From Kutzneria viridogrisea (GTDB taxonomy: Bacteria; Actinomycetota; Actinomycetes; Mycobacteriales; Pseudonocardiaceae), in NCBI GenBank assembly GCA_014138725.1, contig JACJID010000004.1, positions 1 to 64,000 of the forward strand: a stretch of DNA of 64,000 nt, read 5' to 3'. Below, one piece after another: positions 2,368 to 62,736 of the stretch. Each line of letters begins with the position of its first letter. The first letter of the stretch is position 1. Position numbers and translations under genes: made by a program. Below the pieces are notes generated by a model. That model ran no database searches. It had not been told where the DNA came from and saw only the letters and a list, made by a program, of their open reading frames with translations.

Positions 2368-4979
2368 GCCCGGTCCGGGCGCTGCTCACCGACGGCACGG
2401 TCACCGCGATCCGCCCGCTGGACGTACGGGACGCCGCCGAGGTGCGCGCCCTGCACGAGGAGCTGCCCGAGCGGGACAGCTACTTCCGGTTCTTCACGGC
2501 ACAGCCCATGCGGCTGGACCAGCTCGTGGTGCGGATGACCACCGCGGACGTGCACCGCTGCGCACTGGGTGCCTTCATGGGCGACTCGCTGATCGGCGCT
2601 GCCTGCTACGAGGTGGTCGCCGACCCGTTCGTCGCGGAGGTCTCGGTGGCGGTTCGGCACGAGGTGCAGGCGCACGGGGTGGGCACGCTGCTGCTGGAGC
2701 ACCTGGCTGAGACGGCTCGCGAGCGCGGGGTCCGGCAGTTCGAGGCGGAGGTGCTCGCGGAGAACTCGGCGATGCTGAGGGTGTTGGCCGACCTCGGGCT
2801 GCCAGTGCGTCTGGACCGGGACGGTGCGACGGTCCGGGTACTGGTCGCGCTGGAGCAGGACGACCGGTACGAGCAGGCAGTCGCCAGCCGGGAGGCGCGC
2901 GCGGACGTGGCGAGCATGCGCTCCCTGCTGCGGCCGGCAAGTCTCGTGGTGGTGGGTGCGAGCCGCAGGGCCGATTCGGTCGGCAACGCCGTGCTGCGCC
3001 GGGTTCTCGACGCGGGTTTCGCCGGCACGGTGGCCGCGGTCAACCCGCACGCGAGCTGGATCTCCAACGTGCGCTGCCACGCCTCGGTGCTGGACCTGCC
3101 GGAGGTGCCCGAACTCGTGGTGGTGTGCACGCCGGCGAGCGCCGTGCCGGTGGTGCTCGCGCACTGCGCCCGGCGCGGTGTCCCGGCAGTCGTGATCATC
3201 ACCGCGGGCGTGACCGGTGATCCGACCCTGCACCGGGCAGTGCTGGATTCCGTGCGGGGCAGCGGGATGCGTGTGGTGGGGCCGAACTGCCTGGGTATCG
3301 CCAACACCGATCCGGCGGTCCGCCTGGACGCCACCTTCGCCGCCGTCCCCGCACCCCGCGGCGCGGTCGGTGTGGTGACGCAGTCCGGCGGCGCGGGCAT
3401 CGTGCTGCTCGACCAGTTGCGGCGGCTGAGCCTGGGGGTGTCGGCGTTCGTCTCGACCGGGGACAAGTACGACGTCAGTGGCAACGACCTGCTGCGGTGG
3501 TTCGAGCAGGACGAGAACACCGAGTTGGCCGTGCTCTACCTGGAGTCCTTCGGGAACCCCCGCAAGTTCGCCCGGCTCGCCCGCAGGCTCGCCCGCCGCA
3601 AGCCAGTGCTCGCCGTGCGCACGGGCACCAGCGAGGTCGCCCGCCGGGCCGCCGCCTCGCACACCGCGGCGACGGCCACTCCCGCCACCACACGCGACGC
3701 CCTGTACTGCCAGGCGGGCGTGATCGCCGTGGACACCCTGACCGAGTTGCTCGCGACCATCGCAGTGCTCACCGAGCAGCCGCTGCCCTCCGGTCCTCGG
3801 GTGGTGGTCGTGAGCAACGCGGGTGGCGGCGGGGTGCTGGCCGCCGACGCGTGCGCCCAGCAGGGCCTGGTGCTGGCCGACCCGTCGCCCGGCCTGACCG
3901 CCCGGCTCACGGAGTTGCTGCCCGCGCAGGCCTGCCTGGGCAACCCCGTGGACACCAGCGCCGGGGTCTCCCCCTCGGTGTTCGCCGGCTGCGTACGGGC
4001 GGCGGCCGAGGACGATCAAGTCGACGCCGTGCTGGCGATCACGGTGCCGACCGCGCTGGGTGATCCTGCCAACAGCCTGGCCGAGTCGATCCACGGCAAG
4101 CCCGTGCTCGCCGTCGACCTGACCCAAGCCGAGGCGGTGCGGACCCGTGGCGGCGCGCTGCCCACCTTCGCCGACCCCGCGGTGGCCGCCACCGCGTTGG
4201 CCAACGCCGTCGCGCGGCAGCGCTGGCTGTCCACGCCGGAAGGAGCCGTGCCCGATCTGGACGGAATCGACCTGCGGGCCGCGCGCGCACTGGTCGGTGC
4301 CGCGCCCGAGCATGGCTGGCTGGACCCCACGCAGACCGTGGAGTTGTTGCGGTGCTTCGGTTTACCGGTAGTCGACCTCGTCGCCGTGCACACCGCCGAG
4401 GAAGCTGTCGACGCGTGGCGGCGGCTGGGTACGCCCGTCGCGGTCAAGGCTTCGGTGTACGGTGTGCTGCACAAGACCGCCAGCGGTGGCGTGGCGCTGA
4501 ACCTCGCCGACGAGTCCGCGGTGCGTGCCGCTGTGGCTCAGCTCCAACAGCGGTTCGGCACCGCGCTGGTCGAACTCGTCGTGCAGCCGATGGCCCCGCC
4601 AGGTCGTGAGCTGCTCGTCGGTATCGCCGGGGACCCCGGCTTCGGTGCGCTGGTCGTGCTCGGGCTGGGCGGCACCGAGACCGACCTGATCGCCGACCGG
4701 GCCTGCCGTCTGGTCCCGGTCACCGACTCCGAGGCCACTGCCCTGCTCACTGGACTGCGCGGGTCCCCCGCACTGGCCGAGCAGCGTCTCGACCTCGACG
4801 CTGTGCACGAGGTGCTGCTCCGCGTCGGTCGCCTGGCCGAACTGCTGCCCGAGGTCGCCGAACTCGACCTCAACCCGGTGATCACCCACACCAAGGGCTG
4901 CTCCATCGTCGACGCCCGCGTGCGCCTACGCCCGGTCGCGCCCGGGAACCCCCTCCTGCTGCGCAGGCTGAACGCGTGA
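2364..4979 (+). CDS. GNAT acetyltransferase fused to ADP-forming acyl-CoA synthetase (PatA-like)
   Basis: 871 residues. Residues 1-165 are a GNAT domain with the acetyl-CoA loop QAHGVG. From about 190 follow the CoA-binding, succinyl-CoA-ligase-like and ATP-grasp domains of ADP-forming acyl-CoA synthetases, with the conserved phospho-His context AAASHTAA near residue 435. The GNAT-first order is that of Streptomyces lividans PatA, a protein lysine acetyltransferase, and is reversed relative to Salmonella Pat. Family members acetylate metabolic enzymes such as acetyl-CoA synthetase; whether the synthetase part is catalytic is unresolved. The GTG start overlaps the CBS stop. Last gene of the nitroreductase-USP-CBS operon; a hairpin follows at 5009-5029. 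Confidence 0.85.
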   Translation: MSPVRALLTDGTVTAIRPLDVRDAAEVRALHEELPERDSYFRFFTAQPMRLDQLVVRMTTADVHRCALGAFMGDSLIGAACYEVVADPFVAEVSVAVRHEVQAHGVGTLLLEHLAETARERGVRQFEAEVLAENSAMLRVLADLGLPVRLDRDGATVRVLVALEQDDRYEQAVASREARADVASMRSLLRPASLVVVGASRRADSVGNAVLRRVLDAGFAGTVAAVNPHASWISNVRCHASVLDLPEVPELVVVCTPASAVPVVLAHCARRGVPAVVIITAGVTGDPTLHRAVLDSVRGSGMRVVGPNCLGIANTDPAVRLDATFAAVPAPRGAVGVVTQSGGAGIVLLDQLRRLSLGVSAFVSTGDKYDVSGNDLLRWFEQDENTELAVLYLESFGNPRKFARLARRLARRKPVLAVRTGTSEVARRAAASHTAATATPATTRDALYCQAGVIAVDTLTELLATIAVLTEQPLPSGPRVVVVSNAGGGGVLAADACAQQGLVLADPSPGLTARLTELLPAQACLGNPVDTSAGVSPSVFAGCVRAAAEDDQVDAVLAITVPTALGDPANSLAESIHGKPVLAVDLTQAEAVRTRGGALPTFADPAVAATALANAVARQRWLSTPEGAVPDLDGIDLRAARALVGAAPEHGWLDPTQTVELLRCFGLPVVDLVAVHTAEEAVDAWRRLGTPVAVKASVYGVLHKTASGGVALNLADESAVRAAVAQLQQRFGTALVELVVQPMAPPGRELLVGIAGDPGFGALVVLGLGGTETDLIADRACRLVPVTDSEATALLTGLRGSPALAEQRLDLDAVHEVLLRVGRLAELLPEVAELDLNPVITHTKGCSIVDARVRLRPVAPGNPLLLRRLNA

Positions 4980-26764: not shown

Positions 26765-26796
26765 GCGAGTCCCGCTCTCCTGCACGCGAGTCCCGC
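26765..26796 (+). repeat. Two direct copies of GCGAGTCCCGC
   Basis: GCGAGTCCCGC occurs at 26765-26775 and 26786-26796, 21 bp apart. The second copy runs into CCCGCC-CT-GGCGGG, a short hairpin that could end the SDR transcript. The function is otherwise unknown. Confidence 0.45.
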
Positions 26797-31052: not shown

Positions 31053-31217
31053 GGAGCGCCGACACACGGAGCAACCCCGCGTGTCGGCGCTTCACAGACC
31101 GCGTGTCGGCGCTCGGCGTACGGTGTGTTCGCACTGAGCGGGCGATTTCCCAGCTCGTGGGAGTCCGTTCCCCAAGCGCCGACACACCGTTCCGCAAGCG
31201 CCGACACGCGAGGTTAG
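31053..31217. repeat. 22-bp bidirectional repeat element, copy A
   Basis: Fills most of the gap between two convergent genes. Three 22-bp left units (31079-31100, 31101-31122, 31123-31144) begin GCGTGTCGGCGCTT, the third being degenerate. A 29-bp core (31145-31173) contains TCCCAGCTCGTGGGA, and two right units (31174-31195, 31196-31217) begin AAGCGCCGACAC, the reverse complement. An extra inverted half-unit at 31056-31065 pairs with the first left unit. Left unit 1 and right unit 2 are exactly complementary over 14 bp. Related to the elements at 54053 and 62599. Confidence 0.85.
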
Positions 31218-53431: not shown

Positions 53432-54028
53432 GTGAATTCCGCACAGGGCCGGTCGATGGCGACCAGGCAGCCGACCACGTCCGCCAAGATCGTGGTGGCC
53501 GGTGGGTTCGGCGTGGGCAAGACGACGTTCGTGGGTTCGGTGTCGGAGATCGTTCCGTTGACGACGGAGGCGGTCATGACCGAGGCCAGCCTCGGCGTCG
53601 ACGACCTGTCGGCGACGCCGAACAAGGTCACCACCACGGTCGCGATGGACTTCGGCCGCGTGTCCCTGGACAGCGACCTGATCCTGTACCTGTTCGGCAC
53701 GCCCGGACAGCACCGGTTCTGGTTCATGTGGGACGACCTGGTCCGCGGCGCGATCGGTGCGGTCGTGCTGGTGGACACGCGGCGGCTGGCCGATGCCTTC
53801 GCCTCGATCGACTTCTTCGAGGACCGCCGACTGCCCTACGTGGTGGCGGTCAACTGCTTCGACGGGATGCTGCACCACCGCATCGACGACGTGCGCGAGG
53901 CGCTGACGATCGACGCCGCGGTGCCGATGGTCACGTGCGACGCGCGCAACCGGGAGTCGACCAAGCAGACACTGATCACGCTGGTGGAACACGCCATGCG
54001 CCAGTGGATGACCACCACCCGCACCTGA
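53432..54028 (+). CDS. Conservon small GTPase (CvnD-like)
   Basis: 198 residues. P-loop VVAGGFGVGKTTFVGSVSEI, switch region TTTVAMDFGRV, the G3-like LYLFGTPGQHRFWFMWDDL and a G4-equivalent VAVNCFDG identify the CvnD/MglA-like family. It cycles GTP/GDP in a membrane signalling complex with the CvnA- and CvnB-like proteins. In a standard conservon a DUF742 gene lies between the roadblock and GTPase genes; here it is absent. A 22-bp repeat element follows the stop. Confidence 0.92.
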   Translation: MNSAQGRSMATRQPTTSAKIVVAGGFGVGKTTFVGSVSEIVPLTTEAVMTEASLGVDDLSATPNKVTTTVAMDFGRVSLDSDLILYLFGTPGQHRFWFMWDDLVRGAIGAVVLVDTRRLADAFASIDFFEDRRLPYVVAVNCFDGMLHHRIDDVREALTIDAAVPMVTCDARNRESTKQTLITLVEHAMRQWMTTTRT

Positions 54029-54052
54029 GCCCGGGACTCACCAAGCCCCCGC

Positions 54053-54280
54053 GCGTGTCGGCGCTTCGTGTACGGCGTGTCGGCGCTTCGTGTACGGCAT
54101 GTCTGCGTTTGGCGCGCGGTGTCCCAGCAGGCGGGATTGCGTACCGGAAGCGCGAACACGCGGTGCCGGAGGCGCGAACACGCGGTACCGGAGGCGCGAA
54201 CACGCGGTACCGGAAGCGCGAACACGCGGCACCGGAGGCGCGAACACGCGGTGCCGGAAGCGCCGACACGCGGTGCTGGG
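54053..54280. repeat. 22-bp bidirectional repeat element, copy B (expanded array)
   Basis: Left units at 54053-54074 and 54075-54096 are identical and begin GCGTGTCGGCGCTTCG; a third, 54097-54118, is degenerate. A 28-bp core (54119-54146) contains TCCCAGCAGGCGGGA. To the right the opposite-orientation units run in six tandem copies of 22 bp (frame 54141-54272, consensus GTRCCGGARGCG then CGAACACGCG), the last one with CGCCGACACGCG as in the other two elements. It lies between the GTPase gene and murT. A seventh unit is partial (54273-54280). Confidence 0.88.
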
Positions 54281-54309
54281 CGGTGGTGGTCGGGGGTTTC
54301 GGTAACCTG

Positions 54310-55638
54310 ATGGCCGAGTCAGTGCGTGTGGACGATAGGTGGCTGATGGATCGCGCGAGCACCGGGGTGGACGAGGTGTCGACAGCACAGGGTGGGGATC
54401 TGCCCGCCAGGACCGCGGCGGCAGTGGTCGCGGGCAACCTGGCGGCGAAACTGTCCAAGGTGGCCGGTGGCGGCGGTGGCATCATCGGCGGCCGGGTGAC
54501 CCTGGCGCTGGACCCCAACGCGCTGGGGCGGCTGTGCCGCGACCGCACGGTGGCGCTGGTGACCGGCACCAACGGCAAGACCACCACCACGATGATGCTG
54601 GCGCGGGCGATGAGCGTGTTGCAGCCGGTGGCCACCAACCACAGCGGCGCCAACATGCCCGACGGGCTGGTGGCGGCGCTGTCCACCGACCAGGCCGCGC
54701 CGCTGGCCGTGCTGGAGATCGACGAGAACTACCTGCCGAAGATCTCCGACGCCGTGCAGCCCGCGGTGATCGTGCTGCTGAACCTGAGCCGGGACCAGAT
54801 GGACCGGGTCGGCGAGGTGCGGCACACCGAGCGCAACCTGCGCACCGCCATCGCCCGGCTGCGCGACACCACCGTGGTGGCCAACTGCGACGACGTGCTG
54901 GTGACCTCCGCCGCCACCGAGGCCGACAGCGTGATCTGGGTCAGTGCGGGCGGCAACTGGCGCGGTGACTCCACCTCCTGCCCGCGCTGCGGCATGCGCG
55001 TGCACGTCTGTGTCACCGACGGCACCGTGACCGACTGGTACTGCGACTGCGGGTTCCGCCGCCCCACCCCGACCTGGGCGGTGCGCGAGGGCCTGATGAC
55101 CACCCCGTCCGGGGAGTGCTTCGAGCTGGCGCTGCGCCTGCCGGGCAGCGCGAACGAGGCCGACGCCACGCTGGCACTGGCCGCCGCCACGCACCTGTCC
55201 GTGCCGCTCAAGCCCGCGCTGGACCGGATCCGCACCATCACCGGGGTCGGCGGGCGCTACACGACGGTCAGCCGCAACGGCCGGATCGTGCGCATCCTGC
55301 TGGCGAAGAACCCGGCGGGCTGGGCGGAAACCCTGCCGCTGCTGCGCGAGGACACCAGCCGCCCGATCATCATCGCGGTGAACGGCCGGGAGGCCGACGG
55401 GCGCGACCTGTCCTGGCTGTGGGACATCCCCTTCGAGCAGCTGGCGGGCCGCCAGGTGCTCGCGACCGGGGAGCGCTCGGCCGACCTGGCCGTGCGGTTG
55501 ACCTACGCCGGGGTGCAGCACACCCACGTACCGGACCCGTACCAGGCGATCGACGGGGTGGACCCCGGTTCGGTGGAGCTGGTCGCGAACTACACGGCCT
55601 TCCGTGACCTGAAGTCGGGGTTGAGCAATGGTGCATGA
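54310..55638 (+). CDS. murT: Lipid II isoglutaminyl synthase subunit MurT
   Basis: 442 residues. Mur-ligase ATP loop VTGTNGKTTTTMML (about 88-101), the central ATPase with a zinc-ribbon cysteine set (CPRCGMRVHVC...WYCDCG, about 221-245) and the C-terminal DUF1727 domain are in order. With GatD it amidates the alpha-carboxyl of D-Glu in lipid II using glutamine and ATP. The exact start is uncertain: ATG 54310, ATG 54346 or GTG 54376. Its end overlaps gatD by 11 bp. Confidence 0.93.
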   Translation: MAESVRVDDRWLMDRASTGVDEVSTAQGGDLPARTAAAVVAGNLAAKLSKVAGGGGGIIGGRVTLALDPNALGRLCRDRTVALVTGTNGKTTTTMMLARAMSVLQPVATNHSGANMPDGLVAALSTDQAAPLAVLEIDENYLPKISDAVQPAVIVLLNLSRDQMDRVGEVRHTERNLRTAIARLRDTTVVANCDDVLVTSAATEADSVIWVSAGGNWRGDSTSCPRCGMRVHVCVTDGTVTDWYCDCGFRRPTPTWAVREGLMTTPSGECFELALRLPGSANEADATLALAAATHLSVPLKPALDRIRTITGVGGRYTTVSRNGRIVRILLAKNPAGWAETLPLLREDTSRPIIIAVNGREADGRDLSWLWDIPFEQLAGRQVLATGERSADLAVRLTYAGVQHTHVPDPYQAIDGVDPGSVELVANYTAFRDLKSGLSNGA

Positions 55639-62582: not shown

Positions 62583-62598
62583 GTAACGCCTCACCGGC

Positions 62599-62736
62599 GC
62601 GTGTCGGACGTTCCCATAGCGCGTGTCGGACGGCCCGGTGCGGCGTGTTGGCGTTCGGCGGGCGGTTTCCCAGCTGGTGGGAGCCTGGATCGGAACGTCC
62701 GACACGCGGCACCGGAAGCGCCGACACGCGCCGTTT
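62599..62736. repeat. 22-bp bidirectional repeat element, copy C
   Basis: Three left units (62599-62620, 62621-62642, 62643-62664), the first two beginning GCGTGTCGGACG, a 28-bp core (62665-62692) containing TTTCCCAGCTGGTGGGAG, and two right units (62693-62714, 62715-62736). Left unit 1 carries GGACGTTC where the other elements have GGCGCTTC, and right unit 1 carries the exact complement GAACGTCC. It fills the gap between the convergent IclR and PPTase genes. Confidence 0.85.

Follow-up and report, generated by a model that had tools for sequence, protein, structure and literature searches.

What is the block of short repeats that lies between a nucleotide-binding protein gene and murT in Kutzneria viridogrisea, and what could it do there? 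The window, a stretch of 64,000 nucleotides (positions 1 to 64,000 of contig JACJID010000004.1), carries the upstream gene at 53432-54028 (forward strand; Pfam ATP_bind_1), which fits the label of conservon GTPase given in an earlier note on this DNA, and murT at 54346-55638 (forward strand; MurT_C and Mur_ligase_M), whose start was set by eye against the sequence of relatives. The array between them is laid out as the earlier note had described it. On the forward strand, the left arm consists of two identical 22-bp units, GCGTGTCGGCGCTTCGTGTACG (54053-54074 and 54075-54096, together 54053-54096), and a decayed unit, GCATGTCTGCGTTTGGCGCGCG (54097-54118), which in the alignment of the family defined below takes the place of the inner unit on the left. 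The core (54119-54140, forward) aligns across copies and holds a small hairpin, TCCCAGCAGGCGGGA, at 54122-54136. The right arm (54141-54272) runs in the opposite orientation, on the reverse strand, and consists of six 22-bp units, five of the GTGTTCG type and the outermost of the GTGTCGG type. Tandem Repeats Finder gave the right and left arrays the two highest scores among its 30 rows for the window (212 and 96). The right units had been said to differ mostly at the same two positions, which is nearly right: they vary at two adjacent positions near the start (TA, TG or CA), but also at a third (A or G) and at the end of the outermost unit, which alone ends in CCGACACGCG and not in CGAACACGCG. 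Local expansion without coding sense was borne out, 22 not being divisible by three. The GC-rich sequence produces long open frames that span the array; being a by-product of GC content, these frames led us to reject a coding origin.

The array is not peculiar to this gap. The unit core GTGTCGGCGCTTC occurs 164 times exactly in the genome, against 0 matches for the reversed pattern. Within a sample of 460 kb from contig C4, another unit lay at most 60 bp away from 11 of the 12 exact cores, and none of the 12 was inside a called gene. A profile, R1, was built on 30 copies that align nearly gap-free across 111 bp (two units, core, two units), one of them with a one-base insertion. The window copy occupies this frame at 54074-54184 on the forward strand (E 1.1e-15), a match that arises by construction since the copy is among the 30. 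Searched against the 10.25-Mb genome, R1 gave 114 rows, which positional merging reduced to 58 distinct copies; 30 of these match by construction, one is weak (E 0.001), and the total is probably a lower bound, since scoring covered 150 of 13,939 first-look candidates and coreless arrays are missed. The array at 54053-54272 belongs to an intergenic element that has been amplified in this species and is dispersed over its genome. Units strewn at random without the core, the outcome that the earlier note set against its own view, were not what the genome search returned, the 58 copies all being of the core type, though coreless arrays exist too (for example, one of the plan --++ at C4:404138). 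Two sister elements that the earlier note did not report lie in the window itself, both on the forward strand and between convergent genes: one at 31053-31210 (R1 frame 31100-31210; core TTTCCCAGCTCGTGGGA) and one at 62598-62730 (R1 frame 62620-62730; core TTTCCCAGCTGGTGGGA). Two plus two units were present in 20 of the 52 copies measured, among which the window copy (two left and six right, the decayed unit uncounted) has the longest right arm. The copies are unevenly spread over contigs C1 to C11 (chi-square p 4e-7), with 25 on C2 (2.02 Mb), 14 on C4 (1.28 Mb) and 4 on C1 (2.23 Mb). At C2:1967757-1968901 (positions 2757-3901 of locus L084), two arrays of this family stand 1 kb apart with a reverse-strand ORF of 296 aa between them.

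The placement of the copies relative to genes is strongly skewed. Convergent gaps hold 42 of the 58 and tandem gaps the other 16, while none lies in a divergent gap or within a gene. As reference we used the gaps of the 460-kb sample of contig C4, with genes called by our own codon-usage script and not by a standard caller: 390 gaps, of which 75 were convergent, 241 tandem and 74 divergent, amounting to 8.0, 24.0 and 13.7 kb of gap space, respectively (45.6 kb in total). Against this sample, the convergent excess has a p value of 2e-18 when gaps are counted and of 7e-20 when their length is used. Convergent copies begin a median of 22.5 nt from a stop codon, the distance being no more than 40 nt for 69 of 84 ends, and the 16 tandem copies lie closer to the upstream stop (median 35.5 nt) than to the downstream start (107.5 nt).

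The arms of the window array are complementary over 59 nt (75%), and the predicted fold of 54040-54290 has a z score of -4.5. The consensus of the 30 copies is predicted to form a near-perfect hairpin of -91 kcal/mol, whereas five single units fold weakly (-0.5 to -5.8 kcal/mol), the palindrome arising from the two arms. A stable predicted GC-rich hairpin after the stop codon, as in intrinsic terminators, is present. A scan of 53950-54400 for terminator-like sequences found none. Among 104 outward flanks from 52 copies, positions 5 to 9 are richer in T (0.26, 0.38, 0.33, 0.35 and 0.20) than in A (0.06-0.11), and 13 of 104 flanks contain TTT no further out than 16 nt, against 5.4% in shuffles; no more than 4 of 104 contain TTTT. 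The copies are not independent in these counts, because some of the flanking bases belong to the element itself. Terminators of Streptomyces are reported to carry three to four U among the 10 nt that follow the hairpin (PMC12207403).

Strong predicted hairpins are a general property of convergent gaps in the genus, with or without an array. Using gaps of 45-300 bp from our own sample and from the same-genus genomes G003 and G002, with a cut-off of z < -3, we found that array-free convergent gaps passed in 13 of 22 cases at home and in fractions of 0.53 (n=19) and 0.84 (n=19), respectively. In the same order, the fractions were 0.07, 0 and 0.02 for divergent gaps (45 of 58, 45 of 52 and 41 of 41 tested), 0.22, 0.24 and 0.13 for tandem gaps (45 of 81, 45 of 76 and 45 of 78 tested) and 0, 0 and 0.03 for coding windows (40 each). 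Convergent gaps with arrays of the present family passed in five of five cases, and those with arrays of a second, 21-bp family in four of five. The gap between the GTPase gene and murT has no array in G002, G003 and G006, where a different GC-rich hairpin occupies it, the basal 12 bp of which pair perfectly in G003; isolated GTGTYSG-like matches occur there (two each in G002 and G003, one in G006) and are not array-spaced. Similarly, the gap orthologous to the array at C4:71560 holds a hairpin and no unit of this family in G002 and G003. The 460-kb sample has nine gaps with multi-unit arrays, and only for these two (54055 and 71560) are the flanking genes also next to each other in G002 and G003. 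No clean empty site was found at either orthologue, the other hairpins there not being alignable to the array. In stretches of G002 and G003 (L104-L143), certain convergent gaps carried other repeated long palindromes (ATGCAGGGAAGGACGCCTTACCC..., GCCACATGCGCTTCCC..., CCCCGCGAGTCMCGCTCT... and GTGAGTGGCTCACTTCGC...). It seems that repeated hairpins at gene ends form a set particular to each species.

Because array-free convergent gaps tend to hold hairpins and the relatives' orthologous gaps carry another hairpin, the most likely role of the array is that of an ordinary gap hairpin, namely to end transcripts. We hold with moderate confidence that the array copy is a lineage-amplified, REP-like repeat that provides a terminator-type hairpin at gene 3' ends, two-sided between convergent genes; termination and the mode of copying are what we infer here, whereas the existence of the family, its plan, its placement and its predicted folding come directly from the analysis. 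The element consists of at least two inward-pointing 22-bp units, the core and its small hairpin, and at least two reversed units. Modules of 111 bp would have been copied whole to at least 58 places, single loci having later gained or lost units, as may have happened at 54053-54272. Whole-module copying is suggested by the fixed 111-bp length together with arm-specific states common to unrelated loci. A transcript entering from either side is predicted to fold into a long GC-rich hairpin at convergent gene ends, and the job would be to terminate transcription or form 3' ends, for both genes of a convergent pair and, in a tandem gap such as that between the GTPase gene and murT, for the gene upstream, with a weak U-tract of the Streptomyces kind. 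This reading bears on how very GC-rich bacteria end transcripts without strong U-tracts. A repeat may have supplied transcript ends dozens of times in one species, while relatives have other hairpins at the same spot; if so, gene ends have been rewritten by repeats. We count three points against termination: the absence of covariation between the arms, the weak U-tracts and a convergent bias that is weaker in other genera.

Compensatory stem changes, as expected of intrinsic terminators, were not found in 19 or in 30 copies: pairing within copies equalled that between copies both in the set of 19 (30.74 against 30.35 of 44, p 0.24) and in the set of 30 (30.67 against 30.75 of 46, p 0.60). Any two arms of the family pair well regardless of copy, and conservation falls on the unit motif and not on pairs. 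The lack of covariation implies that sequence, rather than pairing, is visibly kept. In this the arms differ from intrinsic terminators of Bacillus cereus, for which PMC5381666 reports compensatory change; covariation is also mentioned for Streptomyces terminator hairpins in PMC12207403. In 13 copies picked by the core alone (52 units), the lettered places of the unit consensus GnGTGTnnGnnnTnnnnGnnC are conserved at 94-100% and the rest at 61-88%, with T4, T6 and G9 at 100%, G3 and G5 at 98%, and G1, T13, G18 and C21 at 94-96%. The family alignment has conserved ends, GCGTGTCGG...CCGACACGC, and its end units are the most conserved; GTGTCGG is found in 99 of 104 outermost units against 100 of 151 inner ones (p 1e-8).

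A DNA-bound roadblock fits this conservation of the units better than termination does and is the main rival. The arrays would then be binding sites for a protein that reads GTGT every 21-22 bp, that is, every two helical turns, and forms a filament or bridge that serves as roadblock or insulator where genes end; the hairpin would be a by-product of the inverted order. Units conserved by position, arms without covariation, the distinct state of the outermost units and a 21-22-bp spacing that stays across genera as the sequence changes would all be expected of such sites. Set against this, plain hairpins occur in array-free convergent gaps, the T-rich outward flanks point to RNA, and no binding protein is known, the candidates examined being those of one transposase family. 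We regard this explanation as unlikely, albeit the best of the alternatives.

Quite improbable, in our judgement, is a selfish MITE- or REP-like element that serves no function, owes its spread to a transposase acting in trans and is tolerated nowhere but at gene 3' ends. MITEs with multi-site ends are fixed-size, non-coding modules with inverted ends, and the array family resembles them in its terminal inverted repeats, fixed size and non-coding nature. The 111-bp module with its best-conserved end units, the absence of R1 from the six same-genus genomes under stricter filters and the patchy occurrence within the family would suit such an origin. Unlike MITEs, the arrays show no target-site duplication at the true outer ends of 52 copies (p 0.35-0.53), nor at the frame ends of 13, although old duplications could have decayed, and no autonomous partner was seen. 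Y1_Tnp (PF01797) has no match in the K. viridogrisea genome, which rules out a RAYT as the copier there; it was found in seven of the 24 genomes tested, namely three of 12 array-rich and four of 12 array-free ones. Moreover, tolerance alone should favour the tandem gap space, which is three times larger (promoters included), yet 42 of the 58 copies are convergent. As for chance or an assembly artefact, 164 exact unit cores against 0 reversed, 58 loci and 0 of 12 cores in called genes leave it practically no probability.

We compared the family with known systems. The earlier note knew of no element with such a plan. No named match was found here either: Rfam at gathering score gave none in the window, and no named repeat with a 22-bp inverted-array plan was recognised in the open-licence literature. 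Placement and behaviour, on the other hand, resemble those of REP/BIME repeats (PMC3733652) and of paired uptake-sequence terminators (PMC1852404). The GTAG/CGTC-tagged REP/BIME repeats are short, intergenic, often lineage-specific and in many cases arranged as inverted pairs or clusters, and most of their sites are downstream of coding regions, in convergent and tandem gaps (PMC3733652). The array family likewise is short, intergenic, located at gene 3' ends and found in convergent and tandem rather than divergent gaps (42, 16 and 0 of 58). In contrast to a tagged REP unit, which is a palindrome of 20-40 bp that carries GTAG or CGTC as an unpaired tag on one side, the array unit is not palindromic by itself and the alignment, running from GCGTGTCGG to CCGACACGC, has no tag. 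Phased direct units in both arms and, in the K. viridogrisea genome, a core between the arms also set the family apart from REP/BIME, as does the missing Y1 transposase that would be expected of REPs with a RAYT. In Neisseria and Pasteurellaceae, paired uptake signals act as terminators, the motif occurring twice in opposite orientation to give a hairpin and being enriched between tail-to-tail genes (PMC1852404). Here, too, a short inverted motif yields a hairpin with tail-to-tail enrichment, but uptake signals generally number at least 1,000, against 164 exact cores here, mostly clustered (11 of 12 in the 460-kb sample). A survey of bacterial stem-loop sequences found that stable hairpins favour convergent over divergent gaps; its new repeat families are from Yersiniae, Bordetellae and Enterococci, and its available excerpts name no 22-bp arrays (PMC1590033). 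We therefore file the family as a new variant among interspersed 3'-end repeats, outside any named family and lacking what defines tagged REPs.

The profile search through the genome and its relatives, which the earlier note had proposed, returned 58 copies at home, none in six genomes of the same genus under stricter filters, and matches in five genomes of other Pseudonocardiaceae genera (G015, G022, G041, G045 and G051, out of 59 other genomes searched). Exact unit matches in the six same-genus genomes numbered 0 or 1 each. The 20 loci from the R1-matched genera are inverted arrays, each with its own unit of 21 or 22 bp, so that this spacing is constant across genera while the unit sequence changes. 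By the pattern GCGTGTNSGCN{11,12}GCGTGTNSGC, matches were found in 36 of 297 genomes of the family, belonging to 14 of 46 genera, with at most one per genome for the reversed control; arrays of other units are missed, since the pattern is tied to GCGTGTNSGC. Including the K. viridogrisea genome, 20 genomes had at least 5 matches and 13 had at least 20, and in genera g40 and g42 some species had dozens and others none. A class-wide draw matched in 7 of 296 genomes, six of which, besides K. viridogrisea, had one or two matches, no more than the reversed control. In a collection of species genomes, which perhaps did not include that of K. viridogrisea, a scan for two tandem units of its own type spaced exactly 22 returned a single stretch, from Kouleothrix, that we took for chance.

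Placement in the other genera is less skewed than at home. Among 18 arrays, seven were convergent, eight tandem, two divergent and one unclassed (p 0.005 against gap space for the 17 classed), with none of four convergent in G117; the 20 R1-matched loci, a small or noisy count, comprised seven convergent, nine tandem, one divergent and three undetermined. The terminator reading can accordingly be extended to other genera only so far. That the plan recurs there while the units differ in sequence suggests a common putative copying or binding factor. Broader still, and rather unlikely in our estimation, would be a class of Pseudonocardiaceae 3'-end elements made of helically phased 21-22-bp GCGTGTNSGC arrays, typically inverted about a centre, whose plan is kept and whose unit sequence is renewed by lineage; this would be expected if a putative co-evolving DNA-binding or transposase-like protein read the units, copied the elements and used them as two-sided transcription barriers.

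Further repeats were observed alongside these arrays. The second family consists of 21-bp arrays of about GCGGGACTCGCGNNCCCCAGA, with 182 tandem-pair matches in the K. viridogrisea genome against 0-4 in each of the six same-genus genomes; examples lie at 26767-26796 of the window, C4:71240-71506 and C3:435769-436447 (L102). Of its 26 clusters in the 460-kb sample, 13 lay in convergent gaps, eight in tandem gaps, five in called genes and none in divergent gaps, and several clusters adjoin arrays of the first family. A related element whose arms and loop are both long, possibly a younger burst, accounts in G022 for three loci (L190-L192) and for nine R1 rows, each of length 124; two of these loci, L191 and L192, appear nearly identical, including the flanking repeat. 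Finally, a convergent gap near G210:C1 1402865-1403231 (L209) carries 16 units in a single orientation and no inverted arm.
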